This document shows positions 6,373 to 17,441 of a DNA stretch of 64,000 nt, in pieces (the stretch's first letter is position 1; every line of letters starts with the position of its first letter). Both the position numbers and the translations under genes were made by a program. Location: NCBI RefSeq assembly GCF_036997485.1, contig NZ_JAWLPU010000002.1:434001-498000 (forward strand). Reading direction: 5' to 3'. The notes beneath the pieces are model-generated. The model ran no database searches. It was not told where the DNA came from and saw only the letters and a program-made list of their open reading frames with translations. The DNA is from Brachyspira pilosicoli (GTDB taxonomy: Bacteria; Spirochaetota; Brachyspiria; Brachyspirales; Brachyspiraceae).

Positions 6373-7506
6373 TTATGCTTTTTTAAGAGCAGCGGCTAAT
6401 ATTCTATCAAGCGGAAGTATCTCATCTACCCCACCCCTAGCAATAGCCTCTCTTGGCATACCAAAAACAGTACAAGTCTCTTCGTTTTGAGCAATGTTAT
6501 AAGCACCAGCATCTTTCATTTCTTTCATACCATTAGCGCCATCATCACCCATTCCAGTAAGTATGATACCTATAGCCTTATTTTTAGCATATACAGCACC
6601 GCTTCTAAAAAGTACATCTACAGAAGGCTTGTGTCTAGTAACAGGCTCGCCGTCTACAACCTCAATATAATACTTTCCGTTTTTAACTTTTATCATAGTA
6701 TGCTTTCCACCCCTTGCAAGTACAGCTTGACCGCGTCCTATACTCATACCATCTTCAGACTCAAAAACTTCTATTTTTAATACAGTGTTTAATCTTCTTG
6801 CAAAAGAAGTAGTAAAATGTTCAGGCATGTGCTGAGCTATTACTATAGGAGGAGCAGAAGGAGTAACATTTTTTAAACATTCTATTAAAGCCTCAGTACC
6901 GCCTGTAGAAGAACCTATAAGTATAATTTTATCCATAGCAACTTCTCTCGAAGGTACAAGCGGAAGTATAATATCAGCATTATTTTTAGGATAAACTTTA
7001 AACCCAGAAGTTTTAGGAGCTTCCACAACAACTCTATTAGTAGCAATATTGTTAACAGTTTCTGTAGGCATAGCCACACCATGTTTTTTATAGAACTTAG
7101 CTCTGTTGTTGTAAGCATTTTTTATTTTTTCAACTAAATCAGTAGCTAATTCTTCAACTCCATCTCTTACATTAGCAGAAGGTTTTATTACATAGTCAAA
7201 AGCCCCAATATTTAAAGCATCTAATGCTAACTCTCTATGTTTATCAAGCAAAGAACTAAACATTATTACAGGAATAGGATTATTAATCATAAGTTTCTTA
7301 AGATAAGTAATACCGTCCATCTCCGGCATTTCTATATCTAAAGTAATAATATCAGGTTTTACAGTTTTTAATTTAGCTTCTGCAAGTATTGGATTAGCAG
7401 CAGTAGCTATCATCTCTAAATCAGGGTCAGAATTAACAATTTTAGTAAGCAGCTGCCTTATTAATGCGCTGTCATCAATAGATAAAACTTTAATTTTATT
7501 AGCCAT
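6373..7506 (-). CDS. cheB: Protein-glutamate methylesterase CheB
   Basis: Removes methyl groups from, and deamidates, chemoreceptors; it is activated by phosphate from CheA. The N-terminal receiver domain has the acidic pair SIDDS and phospho-acceptor D57 in TLDIEMPEMDG. The C-terminal esterase has the triad segments GSSTGGTEAL (Ser), IAQHMPEHFT (His) and LTGMGDDGANG (Asp). It has 377 aa, of usual size. It sits between cheD and the unknown last gene of the operon, and AAGGA lies 9 nt before the ATG. Confidence 0.97.
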   Translation of the reverse strand: MANKIKVLSIDDSALIRQLLTKIVNSDPDLEMIATAANPILAEAKLKTVKPDIITLDIEMPEMDGITYLKKLMINNPIPVIMFSSLLDKHRELALDALNIGAFDYVIKPSANVRDGVEELATDLVEKIKNAYNNRAKFYKKHGVAMPTETVNNIATNRVVVEAPKTSGFKVYPKNNADIILPLVPSREVAMDKIILIGSSTGGTEALIECLKNVTPSAPPIVIAQHMPEHFTTSFARRLNTVLKIEVFESEDGMSIGRGQAVLARGGKHTMIKVKNGKYYIEVVDGEPVTRHKPSVDVLFRSGAVYAKNKAIGIILTGMGDDGANGMKEMKDAGAYNIAQNEETCTVFGMPREAIARGGVDEILPLDRILAAALKKA

Positions 7507-7536: not shown

Positions 7537-8130
7537 TTAAAATAATGTAATATCAGATTTCTCTTCAATTTTTTGTTGCAAGTTTTTAGAATACTTAATT
7601 TCTTGTTCAGCAGAGAACTCTTTAGTTTTACCTTCAATTTTTTTCATAAGCACTCTGTTTTCGGTATTGAAAAAAAACACTTTTCTAGGCCAAGAACCTC
7701 CAACATCCTCACTGATAATAGGAATATTTTCATCAGCTAAAAATTTTCTAGCGAATTTAATATTTTTATCTGGTACTTGAAGCACATTACTAGTCATACC
7801 AGTTAAAACGTGTCCGCCTCCAAATATTTTAGCTGTAAGATTAGCCTTTTTACCTCCAAGTTTAATTATCTCGTTTATTAGCACCTCCATAGCGTAAAGA
7901 CCATATCTAGTATAATTATAATCATCTTCAGGATTCTCCCATTCTTTCATCTCTGGGAGCATAAAGTGATTCATGCCGCCGAACTTCAAATTATTCTCAA
8001 ATAAACAAACCGATATACAACTTCCCAATACTGTTTTTATTACCGCAGGCTGTCTAGAGGCATAATAACCACCTATATATATAGTGATTCTTTTAAAATT
8101 GCTGTTAGCAGCGGATGGAAAATCTAACAT
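7537..8130 (-). CDS. cheD: Chemoreceptor glutamine deamidase CheD
   Basis: Deamidates receptor glutamines and in many bacteria also docks with a CheC/CheX-type phosphatase. The catalytic Cys lies in TVLGSCISVCLF and the His in GGMNHFMLPE, both in family positions. It has 197 aa, longer than the usual ~160; the extra part is a charged C-terminal tail ending KSDITLF. The last three residues, TLF, are also the end of the MCP-like protein at the head of this operon (see findings). GGGG lies 8 nt before ATG 8130. Confidence 0.95.
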   Translation of the reverse strand: MLDFPSAANSNFKRITIYIGGYYASRQPAVIKTVLGSCISVCLFENNLKFGGMNHFMLPEMKEWENPEDDYNYTRYGLYAMEVLINEIIKLGGKKANLTAKIFGGGHVLTGMTSNVLQVPDKNIKFARKFLADENIPIISEDVGGSWPRKVFFFNTENRVLMKKIEGKTKEFSAEQEIKYSKNLQQKIEEKSDITLF

Positions 8131-8146
8131 ATATCAAACCCCGTAA

Positions 8147-8992
8147 TTAAATCTTTTTATAGATATTGCTAGAAATATATTTAAACAAGTCTGAAATTCC
8201 AAACAAAGTTTCAGAATGCCCTATAAACACATAACTATCATCTTTCATATATCTATAAAATTTATTAAATAATTCTTTTTGAAACTCTTTATCAAAATAA
8301 ATTATTACATTTCTGCAAAATATCAAATCAAACTTAGTATGTATATCAAAATCTTCATCTTTAAAATTAAGCTGTCTAAACGATATACATTTTTGCAAAA
8401 TATTTTTTACTTTATAAAGGCCTGCATTATTTCCAGTACCTTTAAGAAAATATTTCTTCAAAGTATTAGTTTGAATAGTTTCTACAGTCTCCTCTTTATA
8501 TATACCAGCATAAGCATGAGCAAGTACATTAGTATCTATGTCACTTGCTAAAATTTTTATATCATAATGATTAAATCTTTCTCCAAAATAATCATGAAGC
8601 GTCATCGCAATAGTATAAGGCTCTTCTCCAGTAGAACAGGCAGCAGACCATATCCTTAAATTATTAACCTTTCCTTCTTTATAACTCTTTTCCCAATTTG
8701 GAAGAAAGGTACTTTTCATATATTCAAAATGCTTATTCTCCCTAAAAAAGTCAGTTTTATTAGTAGTAACAGCATTGATGAAATTGGTAACTTCTTCATC
8801 AGGAGCACCTTTTAAATATTCTATATATTCTCTAAAAGAAGACATATTTAAAGCTCTAATTCTCTTACTTATTCTTGAAGTAACTAAAGCTCTTTTATGT
8901 TCAGACATTTGTATGCGAGTTTTATCATAAATAATTCTAACTAATTCGTTAAACTCGCCGTCTGTTAAAGGTGCAAGATTTAATTCACTCAT
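8147..8992 (-). CDS. cheR: Chemotaxis protein methyltransferase CheR
   Basis: SAM-dependent methyltransferase that adds methyl groups to receptor glutamates. It has the CheR N-terminal helical domain (FNELVRIIYDKTRIQMS, TTNKTDFFRE) and the Rossmann methyltransferase part (RIWSAACSTGEEPYTIAM, DLIFCRNVIIYFD). I chose ATG 8992, not TTG 9004, because GAGG lies 6 nt before this ATG and would be coding in the longer form. It starts 8 bp after the cheW stop codon. Confidence 0.96.
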   Translation of the reverse strand: MSELNLAPLTDGEFNELVRIIYDKTRIQMSEHKRALVTSRISKRIRALNMSSFREYIEYLKGAPDEEVTNFINAVTTNKTDFFRENKHFEYMKSTFLPNWEKSYKEGKVNNLRIWSAACSTGEEPYTIAMTLHDYFGERFNHYDIKILASDIDTNVLAHAYAGIYKEETVETIQTNTLKKYFLKGTGNNAGLYKVKNILQKCISFRQLNFKDEDFDIHTKFDLIFCRNVIIYFDKEFQKELFNKFYRYMKDDSYVFIGHSETLFGISDLFKYISSNIYKKI

Positions 8993-9000
8993 AAAAAACC

Positions 9001-9534
9001 TCAAACTATAGTTTTACTTATAGCATCATTAGATTTAACTATATCCTCTATAGGAAGGACCATGATAATTTTATTTTCAAGCCTAATAACATTAGATATC
9101 TGCAAACCGCTAACATTAGCAATAGGAGTAGCTGTCATCTGGCTTTCATAAACAGTAATAACATCAGAAACCATATCAGCAAGTATGCCAAATCTTCTGT
9201 TAGAAGTAGATATTACTATAATAACATCATTTTCTATAGAACGATCATCTCTTCTCTCAAGTCCAAAACGCATTCTTATATCAACTATATGTAAAATATT
9301 ACCTCTTAAATTAATAAGCCCTCTCATATATTTAGGACTTCCAGGCACAGGAGTAATAGTAGTAACACCAACTATACCTTCTATACTTAGCACATCAAGA
9401 GCATATTCTTCGTTATCTATCTTAAAAACAAGAAATTGCTGACTTGGCTCTGTGGAAGCATTCTCTTCTGCACCTATACCCACACCGCCAATCTGTGCTA
9501 TCTCACTAGCATTAATTTTTTGATTATCCAACAT
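9001..9534 (-). CDS. cheW: Chemotaxis coupling protein CheW
   Basis: Adaptor that links receptors to the CheA kinase. The 177-aa protein has a ~30-residue N-terminal extension and then a full CheW SH3-like fold: FLVFKIDNEEYALDVLSIEG, PVPGSPKYMRGLINLRG and later RFGILADMVSDVI are the family landmarks. It lies 14 bp after cheA, with AAGGA 8 nt before its ATG. Confidence 0.97.
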   Translation of the reverse strand: MLDNQKINASEIAQIGGVGIGAEENASTEPSQQFLVFKIDNEEYALDVLSIEGIVGVTTITPVPGSPKYMRGLINLRGNILHIVDIRMRFGLERRDDRSIENDVIIVISTSNRRFGILADMVSDVITVYESQMTATPIANVSGLQISNVIRLENKIIMVLPIEDIVKSNDAISKTIV

Positions 9535-9548
9535 ATTAAAATCCTTTA

Positions 9549-11654
9549 TTATTTAACGCCATTATTAACTTTATTTTGTAAAGATATATTAACAAGCCCC
9601 TGTATATCTATAATGAGAGCTATTCTACCATCTCCAAGTATAGTGCCTCCAGCAATTCCTGCATGCTTGCTGAAAGCAGAATCTAAAGACTTAATAACAA
9701 CCTGCTGCTGATCCAATAACTCATCTACAAATATAGCACACTTTCTATATCCTGCCTCAACAACTACAACTATACCGTCATCTATTTCATTAACTTGAGT
9801 GTCTATCTCAAATACCTTATGAAGTCTTATGAGAGGCAAATATTCATCTCTGATTTTTATCATCTCACCTTTTCCTTCAAAAGGCTTAACCTGGTCGCTC
9901 TTAATTTTTATCTGCTCTATGATAGATATTAATGGCATTACATAAATCTGCTCACCTATAGCAAAAGTAATACCTTCTATAATAGCTAAAGTTAAAGGAA
10001 GTTTAATAATAAATGTGCTTCCAACACCTTCAGCACTCTTTATCTCAATCTTTCCTTTCATCTTTTCAACATTAGCCCTAACAACGTCCATACCAACACC
10101 CCTTCCGGATATGTCAGTAACTTTTTCTGCTGTTGATAAACCAGGACTAAATATTGTTCTATATATTTCAGCATCAGAGTAATTGCCGTCTTTTGATAAT
10201 AAGCCTTTCTCTACAGCTTTATTAAATATTTTTTCTTTATTTAAACCATTACCATCATCAGACACCTCTATAACAACATGTCCCTCTTGGTGAGCTGCTG
10301 ACATTGTAATAGTACCATATTCAGGCTTTCCTCTTGCAATTCTCTCTTCTTTAGTTTTTTCTATACCATGGTCCATAGAGTTTCTAATAATATGTTTAAG
10401 TGGGTCAGATAACTGCTCTAACATATTTTTATCTATCTCTGTAGTTTCACCTTTAAGAACTAATTTTACTTCTTTGTTTAATTCTAAGTTAAGGTCTCTT
10501 ACATATCTATGGAATTGTGTGAATATAGGACCTATAGGCATCATTCTTATATTCATAACCTCTTCTTGTATTTGTCTTGAGGTTCTGTCCATAGAACTAA
10601 CTGCCTCTTTTAATCCATTATCTATATCTAAATTTTGTGTTAGCTGCATTATTCTTGATTGTGCTATAACAAGCTCTCCAATCAAGTTCATTAAACTATC
10701 TAATTTTCTTATATCAACTCTTACAGTAGAAGGAGCTTGAACCTTAGTTCCTGTAGGCTTAGCGGCAGGAACTGCTTTATTAGCTTTATCATCATGAACT
10801 TCTTCTTTTGTTTCTTGTTTCTCTTCTTTATGTTTTTCTTCAGCTTTCTCTTCAGCCTTTTCTTCAACAGGCTTAGCTTCCTCTTCTTTCTCTTCTACTT
10901 TCTCAGTAATATTAATATCATTATCATCTATAACAAATAAGAATATATTTTGAACTTGCTCTAAAGTAGAAGAAGTTTCAACATCTAATGAAAATTGAGT
11001 GTAACAAGCATAAGGATCTTCTAAATCGGATATAGCAGGCAAATTACTAATATCTATTTTTAAATTACTAATAGTACCTATAGCTTTAAGGTCATTTAAA
11101 AACATGAGAGGATCTATACCATTATCAAAAATGCTAGGTTTAAATATCATTTCAATATGAAACATATTATTTGAAGAAGATTCTTTACTTTCTTCTTTTT
11201 TAGCATTTTCTTCTGTCTTAGGGGCCTCTTCCTTTTTTTCTACAGATACAGTGCTTATATCATTTCCTTCAGCTATAGCTTTTATTTTAGCTTTTAAGCT
11301 TTCTATATTTGTAACTCCATCTGCTTCCCCAACACCATCTACTATGTTTTGAAGCATAAGTTTTACAGTGTCTAAAAACTCTAATAGAACAGTAATCATT
11401 TGCGGCGTAACATCCAATTTACCGCTTCTTACCTTCTCTAATAAGTTTTCTGCTACGTGGTTTAACTCACTCATTGTAGTAAAACCAACAGTGCCGGCAG
11501 AAGATTTTAAAGTGTGAGCACTCCTAAATATTTTATTTAAAAGGTCTTCATCACTTTTATTATCTTCGAGTAAAACTAAATCATTTTCAAGTCCTTCAAC
11601 TATCTCATTAGCCTCACTCAAAAATATCGAAATAAATTCATCACTATCAAACAT
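9549..11654 (-). CDS. cheA: Chemotaxis histidine kinase CheA
   Basis: Central chemotaxis kinase that phosphorylates CheY and CheB. It has 701 aa with an HPt domain whose phospho-His is H47 (RSAHTLKSSAGTVG), then a response-regulator docking region. A Lys/Glu-rich low-complexity linker follows (about residues 250-295), then the dimerisation domain (VRVDIRKLDSLMNLIGELVI) and the ATPase domain with N box HIIRNSMDHGIE, G1 DDGNGL and G2 GRGVGMDVV. A CheW-like regulatory domain ends the protein. GAGG lies 6 nt before the ATG. Confidence 0.98.
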   Translation of the reverse strand: MFDSDEFISIFLSEANEIVEGLENDLVLLEDNKSDEDLLNKIFRSAHTLKSSAGTVGFTTMSELNHVAENLLEKVRSGKLDVTPQMITVLLEFLDTVKLMLQNIVDGVGEADGVTNIESLKAKIKAIAEGNDISTVSVEKKEEAPKTEENAKKEESKESSSNNMFHIEMIFKPSIFDNGIDPLMFLNDLKAIGTISNLKIDISNLPAISDLEDPYACYTQFSLDVETSSTLEQVQNIFLFVIDDNDINITEKVEEKEEEAKPVEEKAEEKAEEKHKEEKQETKEEVHDDKANKAVPAAKPTGTKVQAPSTVRVDIRKLDSLMNLIGELVIAQSRIMQLTQNLDIDNGLKEAVSSMDRTSRQIQEEVMNIRMMPIGPIFTQFHRYVRDLNLELNKEVKLVLKGETTEIDKNMLEQLSDPLKHIIRNSMDHGIEKTKEERIARGKPEYGTITMSAAHQEGHVVIEVSDDGNGLNKEKIFNKAVEKGLLSKDGNYSDAEIYRTIFSPGLSTAEKVTDISGRGVGMDVVRANVEKMKGKIEIKSAEGVGSTFIIKLPLTLAIIEGITFAIGEQIYVMPLISIIEQIKIKSDQVKPFEGKGEMIKIRDEYLPLIRLHKVFEIDTQVNEIDDGIVVVVEAGYRKCAIFVDELLDQQQVVIKSLDSAFSKHAGIAGGTILGDGRIALIIDIQGLVNISLQNKVNNGVK

Positions 11655-11699: not shown

Positions 11700-12068
11700 T
11701 TAATTCAAAAAACGTTTAACAACATCTAAAAGCTGTGTAGGGTTGAAAGGTTTTACTAACCAACCGCTAGCTCCTGCTGCCTTACCTTCCATCTTCTTAT
11801 CATCTTGAGATTCTGTTGTAAGCATAAGTATAGGAGTATATTTATACTTATCAAATTTTCTAACATTCTTAATAAACTCTATACCATCCATCTTAGGCAT
11901 ATTCAAATCTGTAATTATCATATCAATATTTGAAGCCTTATTTACAGCTTCTAATCCTGTAGTGCCATCATCAGCAGAAATTACATCATAACTCCCCTTC
12001 TTCAAAGTATACTCAACAGATGCCCTAGCAGTATTTGAATCGTCTACTATTAGTATTGTTTTAGCCAT
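11700..12068 (-). CDS. cheY: Chemotaxis response regulator CheY
   Basis: Single receiver domain of 122 aa that carries the signal from CheA to the flagellar switch. The acidic pocket is D9/D10 (IVDDS), the phospho-acceptor is D54 (IITDLNMPKMDG), the switch Thr is in MLTTES and the conserved Lys is K106 (WLVKPFNP). There is no output domain. The gene is 45 bp upstream of cheA in the operon, with GAGG before its ATG. Confidence 0.95.
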   Translation of the reverse strand: MAKTILIVDDSNTARASVEYTLKKGSYDVISADDGTTGLEAVNKASNIDMIITDLNMPKMDGIEFIKNVRKFDKYKYTPILMLTTESQDDKKMEGKAAGASGWLVKPFNPTQLLDVVKRFLN

Positions 12069-12106: not shown

Positions 12107-12355
12107 TTATTTGTTTGCCATATTTAAATATTCTATAAAAGATTTATCTAACCCTTCTACTATAAGTTTTTTTTGATTTTTATCAAGTTCTTTTTTTATA
12201 GAATATAGTATTTGTAAGCCAGCTAAGTCTAAATGACTATCTTCTGGAAATTTTATTGTTGTATCTTCATTATAATTAGCTGCCTTTATAGTATTTTTAA
12301 AATACTTACTCATAGTTCTTATATTAAGATTTTCGTCTATCTCTATAACAGACAT
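12107..12355 (-). CDS. STAS-domain protein
   Basis: An 82-aa protein that looks like a lone STAS (anti-sigma-antagonist/MlaB-like) domain: an early strand (MSVIEIDENLNIRT) and then the STAS-like segment IKFPEDSHLDLAGLQILYSI. In the usual family a Ser/Thr stands in the D-S/T-x-G loop; here the loop reads LDLAG, so regulation by phosphorylation there is doubtful. AGGAGG lies 5 nt before the ATG and overlaps the stop codon of the preceding gene, so the two are tightly coupled. Small STAS proteins occur in several chemotaxis operons, but their role is unclear. Confidence 0.75.
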   Translation of the reverse strand: MSVIEIDENLNIRTMSKYFKNTIKAANYNEDTTIKFPEDSHLDLAGLQILYSIKKELDKNQKKLIVEGLDKSFIEYLNMANK

Positions 12356-12364
12356 AAATACCTC

Positions 12365-14290
12365 CTAAAATAATGTAAAATCCCCACTATCCGAACCTTC
12401 TTCTATGTTAATATCGACATTTAATGTCTCATCTCCAGATAAAATACTGTTCGCTATAGTTCGCTCTTTCTTTATAGTATAATAATTTACTATTTCCATA
12501 TATTTATCACTTTCTATTTTCCAATTCTCTATATTTAAAGTCTTATAATATTCATTTTTCTTACTTCTTATAATATCACGCATCTTATTAAATACTTCCA
12601 TTATCTCATTAATCTTTGTTAAGAGAGTAGTTAAAGAACTTAAATCTATTAGAGTTTTTTCTATCAAATTAAATAACTCTTTAGCATGCGTATCTAAACC
12701 TTTAATATTATCTTCTATGATAGATTTAGATTCTTCCAAGCGTTTATAAATATTATCCATCATAGATTCTATGTATAAATTTTCTATAGACTGCTGATTA
12801 ATATTAAATTTAAATTTATTAATAGCACTAAATATTGTAGTCTTTATATTTTCAAATTTCTCCAAACAAACATCTACAGTATCAGTAATATTTGTAGCTA
12901 TAGATTCCACACTAACCATAGAAAATGTTTGAGAATCGCTGAATATATTACTATTTTTCTCTAATTCTATTTTAGCTAAAAAATTAACAGAGTTAAATGC
13001 TTTAGCAATATTTTTTGTCTCTAAAAACATATTCTCAAGTTCTTCTATAGAATCTATTATACCAGCATTATTATCTGATATTCTATGTTTATTGCTTAAA
13101 AATAATTTAAAATTGTCTAAATAAAGCTTAATAAAACCTAAATATTCATTAAATATAGAATCTGATACGCTAAAAGGAAACTCTGATTTGCCTGATTGAG
13201 CACCTATCATATATTCAACTATTGTGTTTCTATCTGATGATATGTCAAGCAAACTTTCTTTAAGACCCTTTAAGCTATCATTTATGCGGGCATTATTATC
13301 TAAAATCTCTTTATGTATAGATTTAAAATTTTCTATTATCAAACTTAAAACCACGTCATCGAAAGTAAGCAAATCTAATAATTTATGCTCTAAAGATTCA
13401 TTATTTTCTAATTCTGCCGCATTGTTTATAGCAACTACTTCCTTTCCATAAGTATCTATAAACTTTCTATTCTCTTCTACAATATGTTTTATAGACTCTA
13501 TTATATGCTCTGTCTGTTGTCTAATAATATCTTCTTGCGGAAGTATCATCATCACTTCAAATATATAATCATAGCTATTGTCTACTCTTGATATTATATC
13601 AGAAATCATATTAGAAAAAGTAGCAAAAGAATTAACCATATTATTATGCTCTTTATCTAATTGCTCTCTCATTATATTAAAGCTTCTTCTTTGCATCTCA
13701 TTAGTTTTTAATATCTCATCTTTAAACCTATCGAACTGTACAAATAACTCCTGCCCTATTCTATTCATCTGATCGGCCTGCTCGTTTGAAGTTTCTGACA
13801 TTTTTATGATGTTTTTAGATATCTCTCCGAAAGCCTTACCGCCTGAACCATACTTTGAAGCTATGATAATAGCATTAAGCGAATAAACTTTTATCTGGTC
13901 TGCCAATTTTCTTATCTCTTCTATAGAATCCATTACATTACTAATAATATTAACGTCTTCAATAATGGAATTTGATAAAACATCATCTTGATTAATTAAA
14001 GACTGCATTCTATCAAAAGATTTAAAAAAGTCTTCTTGATTTTCTTGGAAGTCATTAGAGAAATTCTTTTTACTATCTTTTTCTGTAAAATAACTTAGAA
14101 GAGAAATAGACTTCTCATTTTCATTTTTCATTTCTTGTTCTATTAATGGAAACTTCTCACCTATAAAACTGTAAACTCTTCCAAATTCTGTTAAAAAATT
14201 TTGTATATCTTTTACAGTAGCCTCTAAGATTGCAGAATAATCAAGAATATTCTCATTAACATTACCATAAACTGTAGTGCTATCCAACAC
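12365..14290 (-). CDS. Cytoplasmic MCP-like protein with CheZ-like DxxxQ motif
   Basis: A 641-aa mainly alpha-helical protein without membrane segments, first gene of the che operon. Residues 126-166 (starting IRKLADQIKVYSLNAIII) are a worn version of the chemoreceptor hairpin tip, with the usual Glu and Arg contacts changed (IIIASKYGSGG). At 246-263 comes VMMILPQEDIIRQQTEHI, where D254 and Q258 give the DxxxQ spacing of the CheZ phosphatase active site. The C-terminus ends DFTLF, matching the tail of CheD. The start is probably GTG 14290 or TTG 14287. It could be a receptor-like scaffold, a CheY-P phosphatase, or both. Confidence 0.7.
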   Translation of the reverse strand: MLDSTTVYGNVNENILDYSAILEATVKDIQNFLTEFGRVYSFIGEKFPLIEQEMKNENEKSISLLSYFTEKDSKKNFSNDFQENQEDFFKSFDRMQSLINQDDVLSNSIIEDVNIISNVMDSIEEIRKLADQIKVYSLNAIIIASKYGSGGKAFGEISKNIIKMSETSNEQADQMNRIGQELFVQFDRFKDEILKTNEMQRRSFNIMREQLDKEHNNMVNSFATFSNMISDIISRVDNSYDYIFEVMMILPQEDIIRQQTEHIIESIKHIVEENRKFIDTYGKEVVAINNAAELENNESLEHKLLDLLTFDDVVLSLIIENFKSIHKEILDNNARINDSLKGLKESLLDISSDRNTIVEYMIGAQSGKSEFPFSVSDSIFNEYLGFIKLYLDNFKLFLSNKHRISDNNAGIIDSIEELENMFLETKNIAKAFNSVNFLAKIELEKNSNIFSDSQTFSMVSVESIATNITDTVDVCLEKFENIKTTIFSAINKFKFNINQQSIENLYIESMMDNIYKRLEESKSIIEDNIKGLDTHAKELFNLIEKTLIDLSSLTTLLTKINEIMEVFNKMRDIIRSKKNEYYKTLNIENWKIESDKYMEIVNYYTIKKERTIANSILSGDETLNVDINIEEGSDSGDFTLF

Positions 14291-16940: not shown

Positions 16941-17441
16941 ATGGCTACGACTCCTATAAAATTTATGGATGTTAGATTTATAAATCCTTTCATAGTATCT
17001 CTGGTTTCTATATTTAAAGAAATGGCTGGTATTCCTATGGAAAAAGGAACTTTAGTAAAAGGACAAGGACGTAAATTATTTTCAGGCTACGGTGTTGCTA
17101 TAGGAATAGTTGGAGATGTTAATGGGCAAGTTTTGTATGAATTCCCTGAAAATTTTTCTCAGCTTCTAACAGAAAGCCTTACAGATAAAAAGAGAAGTGA
17201 TTATGACTCTGAAGATGAGTTTGAAGATATGATGAGAAGTGTTATAAATGAAATGGGTAATACTATAAGCGGTCTTGCTATTACTAAATTATCTGAAGAA
17301 GGCATAAGCTGCGATATTACTCCTCCTATACTCTATTATGGAAAAGAAATTCAAATTATCCCAAAAAACTTACAAACTATTATAATACCTTTTCAATCTA
17401 ATATTGGCTTCGTTAGCGTTAATATAGCTATGGACGCTTAA
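16941..17441 (+). CDS. cheX: CheY-P phosphatase CheX
   Basis: CheX/CheC-family phosphatase that ends the chemotaxis signal by dephosphorylating CheY. The 166-aa protein has a single phosphatase helix with the E-x-x-N motif (VINEMGNTISG), where Glu and Asn are the catalytic pair. The single motif fits CheX, which acts as a dimer, rather than CheC with two. The gene stands apart from the che operon, behind its own promoter, so its dose can be set separately. GAGGG lies 7 nt before the ATG. Confidence 0.88.
   Translation: MATTPIKFMDVRFINPFIVSLVSIFKEMAGIPMEKGTLVKGQGRKLFSGYGVAIGIVGDVNGQVLYEFPENFSQLLTESLTDKKRSDYDSEDEFEDMMRSVINEMGNTISGLAITKLSEEGISCDITPPILYYGKEIQIIPKNLQTIIIPFQSNIGFVSVNIAMDA

Follow-up and report, generated by a model that had tools for sequence, protein, structure and literature searches.

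The first gene of the che cluster of Brachyspira pilosicoli encodes a soluble, MCP-like protein of 641 aa in which a conserved DxxxQ motif stands at a fixed distance from a degenerate receptor tip, at the position that in ordinary receptors belongs to the second methylation helix. Judging from the sequence comparisons, this arrangement in a homologue of the Borrelia protein BB0569 appears to be new. The explanation that we favor, tentatively and at somewhat less than an even chance, is that the 641-aa protein is a response-regulator phosphatase tethered to the chemoreceptor array.

The gene lies on the minus strand (12365..14290, GTG start) of the window, the whole stretch of 64,000 nucleotides analyzed here; the plus strand of the same interval is full of stops. 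The nearest relatives were B. pilosicoli records, with 97-99% identity. An earlier note, which placed it at the head of the che operon, was right about the first position in the cluster but had missed an 82-aa STAS-like ORF before cheY. The minus-strand order was the 641-aa protein gene, the STAS-like ORF (12107..12355; Pfam STAS E 5.4e-4, just under the cut-off), cheY, encoding the candidate substrate (11700..12068), cheA (9549..11654), cheW (9001..9534), cheR (8147..9004), cheD (7537..8130) and cheB (6373..7506), and 195 intergenic bases separated the 641-aa protein gene from a divergent YkuD gene. A good ribosome-binding site was observed for the STAS-like ORF. As had been proposed, no transmembrane helix was present in the 641-aa protein (maximum 19-residue hydropathy 1.41), and no ligand-binding domain was found in the Pfam scan, so that both hallmarks of a canonical MCP were missing.

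The protein aligned end to end with the NF052273 model (BB0569_chemotaxis), residues 12-607 to model positions 4-563 of 590, at about 15% identity; the score was 19.3 bits (E 3.4e-4), under the curated cut-off of 1000 bits. Full-length collinearity, the receptor tip, the lack of a transmembrane helix and the location in a che cluster were shared with BB0569. By sequence, the 641-aa protein is thus best described as a distant homologue of BB0569 and not as a member of the family as curated. Matches to NF052273, a Borrelia model, were found throughout the spirochaete phylum, and the search for relatives in other spirochaetes that the earlier note had suggested, carried out with a profile from 36 members, covered 247 good genomes, of which 94 had a full-length protein with an E value of 1e-100 or less (our count). 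The members were mostly 570-670 aa long and their genes lay in che clusters, most often with cheD as the next gene or with cheB and cheY flanking; cheY, cheB, cheD and cheA were among the neighbors. No relatives were found in viral contigs, and the matches listed in the plasmid search were annotated as ordinary MCPs, with no family relative of full length among them. Elsewhere in this genome, beyond the limits of the window, two neighboring genes (L125 and L127, G000:C3:391230-393687) encode weakly MCP-like proteins of about 650 aa.

The DxxxQ motif (13517..13531, minus strand) consists of D254 and Q258, as the earlier note had read it, and is the only DxxxQ in the protein. Since 1.39 occurrences were expected per shuffled copy of the 641-aa sequence, the bare motif is not evidence. 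Its conservation is another matter: the two residues were constant in 44 of the 45 aligned members, and in 33 of 34 in a non-redundant set of family sequences with less than 60% identity (mean pairwise identity 25%, lowest 14%). In the 34-sequence set their columns were among the best kept of the whole protein, on a par with the best-kept residues of the tip. The family consensus around the motif was IMxxxQxQDIIRQSLDHV, with LQFQDRLTQSL in Borrelia. The only member lacking both D and Q (L065, G244:C161) had an in-frame TAG and no C-terminal tail and is perhaps a decaying copy; CheD was not found in its genome. Both residues also fell on an exposed face of one helix in a helical-wheel test, at about 150-170 degrees from the hydrophobic moment. 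Neither of the two findings that the earlier note had named as refuting it, variation at residues 254 and 258 or a position off one exposed helix face, was thus made.

The distance between the tip and the motif was likewise fixed. From the second tip glycine, Gly151, to D254 there were exactly 103 residues in 29 of the 45 members, including those of Brachyspira and Borrelia, and 99 residues in 14 of the 45 (most Treponemataceae). In Escherichia coli Tar, 103 residues past the tip glycine leads to residue 494, three residues after the methylation site at position 491; therefore, the DxxxQ stretch stands where the second methylation helix would otherwise be. DxxxQ was absent from the equivalent position in all 12 ordinary MCPs tested from this Brachyspira genome. 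These results bear on the view that the protein is a degenerate cytoplasmic chemoreceptor signaling by its tip only, with a coincidental DxxxQ likeness. The expectation of about 1.4 such motifs in a protein of this make-up would fit it, as would the fact that MCPsignal was the sole recurrent and biologically sensible Pfam family; nevertheless, the conservation, the spacing, the register with CheZ described below and the result of 0/12 in ordinary MCPs make it decidedly improbable.

The degenerate receptor tip claimed in the earlier note was borne out by a match to Pfam MCPsignal (PF00015) at residues 99-239 (E 5e-6); the score was 26.9 bits for the protein alone, under the curated cut-off of 34.6 bits, and 34.7 bits in the genome search. 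The tip itself (residues 138-158; 13817..13879, minus strand) was the most conserved region of the BB0569-like family, in which N139, G148, G151 and F154 were invariant. An isoleucine occupied the position where receptors have a glutamate that, as in Tsr, is a trimer contact. In agreement with the predicted helical residues, the AlphaFold model, built with 13 Brachyspira sequences, was almost all-helical, with low confidence (mean pLDDT 60, pTM 0.49); the better-scored segments were about 11-60, 230-280, 300-355 and 530-585. A fragment comprising residues 1-365 gave lower confidence (pLDDT 46.5) and was left out of the analysis.

In this model a first coiled-coil hairpin with the degenerate tip (residues 77-247; 13550..14062, minus strand), delimited from the AlphaFold, MCPsignal and Foldseek results, is formed by helices 77-144 and 149-247, followed by the CheZ-like helix (residues 250-286; 13433..13543, minus strand). 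A second long helical hairpin (residues 377-549; 12644..13162, minus strand) was placed from the model and from conservation, with I441 near-invariant and E442 invariant near its turn. The model would suggest a four-helix bundle from which the two long hairpins project. An internal duplication of the hairpins was considered and rejected, with hhalign giving at best 17-22% probability and no tip-to-tip alignment. The best Foldseek matches were receptor cytoplasmic domains, 2ch7 and the 6s1k tip (target TM 0.89), and with the full model both Foldseek and VIA-align returned receptor coils together with numerous helical bundles of no relation to them. Neither list contained CheZ, an absence that proves nothing with a low-confidence model as the query.

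The likeness to CheZ on which the earlier note relied extended beyond the two letters of the motif to a register, but no direct match to CheZ was obtained. When a CheZ core profile was slid along the family without gaps, the best register placed D143 of CheZ on D254 (z 4.7, the runner-up reaching 2.8), and thereby Q147 on Q258; when the D and Q columns were masked, this register kept the first place (3.7 against 3.1). An hhalign comparison of the family with CheZ returned the identical register over 58 columns, at a probability of 0.6%, which is negligible and so gives no demonstration of direct homology. In the Pfam scan of the 641-aa protein CheZ (PF04344, cut-off 30.7) was not found, and family members scored no better than ordinary MCPs against the CheZ HMM. 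Membership of the family in CheZ was thus rejected, with nothing above noise in hmmsearch and the hhalign value of 0.6%. No canonical CheZ was over the cut-off in 30 spirochaete genomes, a lack in spirochaetes that the Brachyspira hyodysenteriae genome paper describes as well (PMC2650404).

The link of the family to CheZ runs instead through short cousins, most of them picked by a CheZ-like pattern. The family profile reached cousins in four genomes (G015, G159, G305 and G144; E 1e-22 to 1e-25) with alignments that span the DxxxQ, and a pattern search detected cousins in 10 of the 247 genomes. A profile of ten cousins matched CheZ over 87 columns in hhalign, with the D and the Q each aligned to its CheZ counterpart, at a probability of 74.8% (E 2.6e-5), a figure that is biased upward because the selecting pattern itself resembles CheZ; a profile of twelve ordinary MCPs gave 0.2%. 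Two cousins, L093 (G366) and L095 (G015), were detected by the Pfam CheZ model and not through the motif, so that their detection is free of this bias. Their best Pfam match was MCPsignal and their second was CheZ (E 5.6e-4 and 6.8e-3, respectively), with D and Q in register. In all seven cousins with a readable tip, the distance from the tip glycine to the DxxxQ was 103 residues. Conservation, spacing and cousins together lend strength to the CheZ idea, and the catalysis is putative. A search of the literature for a CheZ-like receptor found none, the original BB0569 paper lying outside its coverage.

The phosphatase that the earlier note set beside the 641-aa protein, CheX, with EMGN at residues 104-107 as its single ExxN, was indeed encoded by a separate gene, but this gene (16941..17441, plus strand) lies outside the operon, 2.65 kb off and on the other strand. 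CheX is near universal, and none of the 94 genomes that have the full-length family was without it; therefore, a phosphatase is not missing there, and the idea that the 641-aa protein stands in for a missing CheX was rejected.

The C-terminus of the protein carries a conserved tail, GDFTLF (residues 636-641; 12368..12385, minus strand). Family tails were strongly conserved, with GEVTLF or GDITFF elsewhere, and the cheD product of this cluster ended in the same type of tail, SDITLF. Tails of the type [IVF]T[LFW]F were observed in 37 of 40 family members and in 15 of 32 CheD proteins at the same loci (among them those of the L047, L061, L063 and L068 loci), and in none of 436 other genes (323 other genes and 113 other che genes). 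The simplest reading is a docking partner common to the family tail and the CheD tail. The Brachyspira sequence DFTLF fits the loose x-aromatic-x-x-aromatic form of a CheR-type pentapeptide, but in the majority of homologues the second position is V or I. The C-terminal sequences of two ordinary receptors of this genome (L112, G000:C2:335704, and L113, G000:C1:262868), EFESF and GFSTF, resemble CheR-binding pentapeptides.

CheD was also found in 92 of the 94 family genomes, and of about 63 Treponemataceae genomes 16 had the family and 15 had CheD, all 15 falling inside the 16 (counts taken by hand from the search tables). Together with the common tail, the frequent position of cheD as the next gene and the coincidence with the second methylation helix, this co-occurrence could point to an adaptation-linked role, in which the Gln-rich helix would be a target or binding site of CheD, which would modify or sense the 641-aa protein instead of an ordinary receptor. 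We regard this as improbable. No site of the pattern known for CheD and CheR, A/S-x-x-Q/E-Q/E-x-x-A/S, occurs in the stretch, and the strictness of D254 would go unexplained; moreover, the co-occurrence may only reflect a che cluster gained or lost as a unit, and the CheD of Borrelia is encoded elsewhere and lacks the tail.

BB0569, which resembles MCPs and is located at the cell poles, has an important part in motility and chemotaxis (PMC5318424, PMC10703414), and a 2017 review called its specific function unknown. In Borrelia, low CheY-P results in runs and high CheY-P in flexing (PMC5318424). A polar location and a receptor-like sequence of this kind would also suit a structural component of the array at the pole, with a role in clustering receptors or in activating CheA such as has been proposed for BB0569, the DxxxQ helix being a non-catalytic docking or packing face, for CheY, CheB or CheD. 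A scaffold or kinase-activating role fits the polar chemotaxis role of BB0569 about as well as a phosphatase does, and the constant presence of CheX and the conservation of the tip above all other regions agree with it. The bb0569 mutant is said, in work by Zhang from 2016, to run constantly and to lose its receptor clusters. Since low CheY-P gives runs, a constantly running mutant would lack CheY-P, which suggests lost kinase activity. This array-organizing role is a real possibility, which we rate slightly behind the phosphatase: the strict D and Q, the CheZ register and the 103-residue spacing would be left unexplained, while most of the rest of the sequence drifts to 14-25% identity.

Returning to a phosphatase tethered to the array, we infer that the soluble, receptor-shaped protein would join the polar CheA/CheW array by its degenerate tip, with the CheZ-type D-x-x-x-Q helix at the far end of the coiled coil, where the second methylation helix would lie. 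If it works as CheZ does, the lysine of the response regulator would be contacted by D254, and Q258 would orient the water attacking the aspartyl phosphate, so that phosphate would be removed at the array from CheY-P or CheB-P; besides CheY, the substrate could be the receiver of CheB or some other regulator. The tail at the C-terminus, itself conserved, would serve for docking of a partner, which CheD may share. The main tension is that the bb0569 phenotype, as reported, is the opposite of that predicted for loss of the main CheY-P phosphatase. A mutant without any of the protein, however, could also be without kinase activation, and this would mask a phosphatase role.

A wider reading would make these proteins a receptor-like class whose second methylation helix has given way to a response-regulator phosphatase site, always equally far from the CheA-binding tip, with CheZ derived from that helix and the BB0569-like proteins acting as the hitherto unrecognized CheZ-type phosphatases of the spirochaetes within the array; we consider it rather unlikely. 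A conserved pair in the register of CheZ gives BB0569, needed for chemotaxis of the Lyme spirochaete, a specific and testable chemistry. The BB0569 family is also extended to Brachyspira and to much of the phylum and tied to CheD through co-occurrence and a common tail, and a possible evolutionary source for CheZ is brought into view.

Compared with known systems, the 641-aa protein is closest to BB0569, which is also soluble, with a degenerate tip, a gene in a che cluster next to cheB and cheY, a DxxxQ (FQDRLTQ) at the 103-residue spacing and a tail ending in LF. The Brachyspira locus differs from that of Borrelia in the extra STAS-like gene and in having cheD within the cluster, its product ending in a tail of the family type. 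With ordinary MCPs such as Tar and Tsr the protein shares the tip and the coil register, but it has neither their ligand domain nor their transmembrane helix, has lost the trimer-contact Glu and carries the DxxxQ stretch instead of the second methylation helix. CheX and CheC may resemble it in a role of taking phosphate off CheY, through another fold and another motif (ExxN). The short cousins with QFQDITRQ (L093, L095 and L138-L147) have the receptor tip followed by the DxxxQ 103 residues on, as in the family, but they are mostly of 425-545 aa, most have a hydrophobic N-terminal segment that would anchor them in the membrane, and they lack the second hairpin and the common tail and are closer to CheZ. 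CheZ itself has no receptor hairpin and is only about 210-260 aa long, and the family falls below any CheZ cut-off; nevertheless, both have the DxxxQ on an exposed helix, with Met seven residues before the D and, in most members, Gln directly before it. Furthermore, the C-terminal peptide of CheZ, which binds CheY, ended in Phe in most of the CheZ proteins examined, as does the tail of the family.
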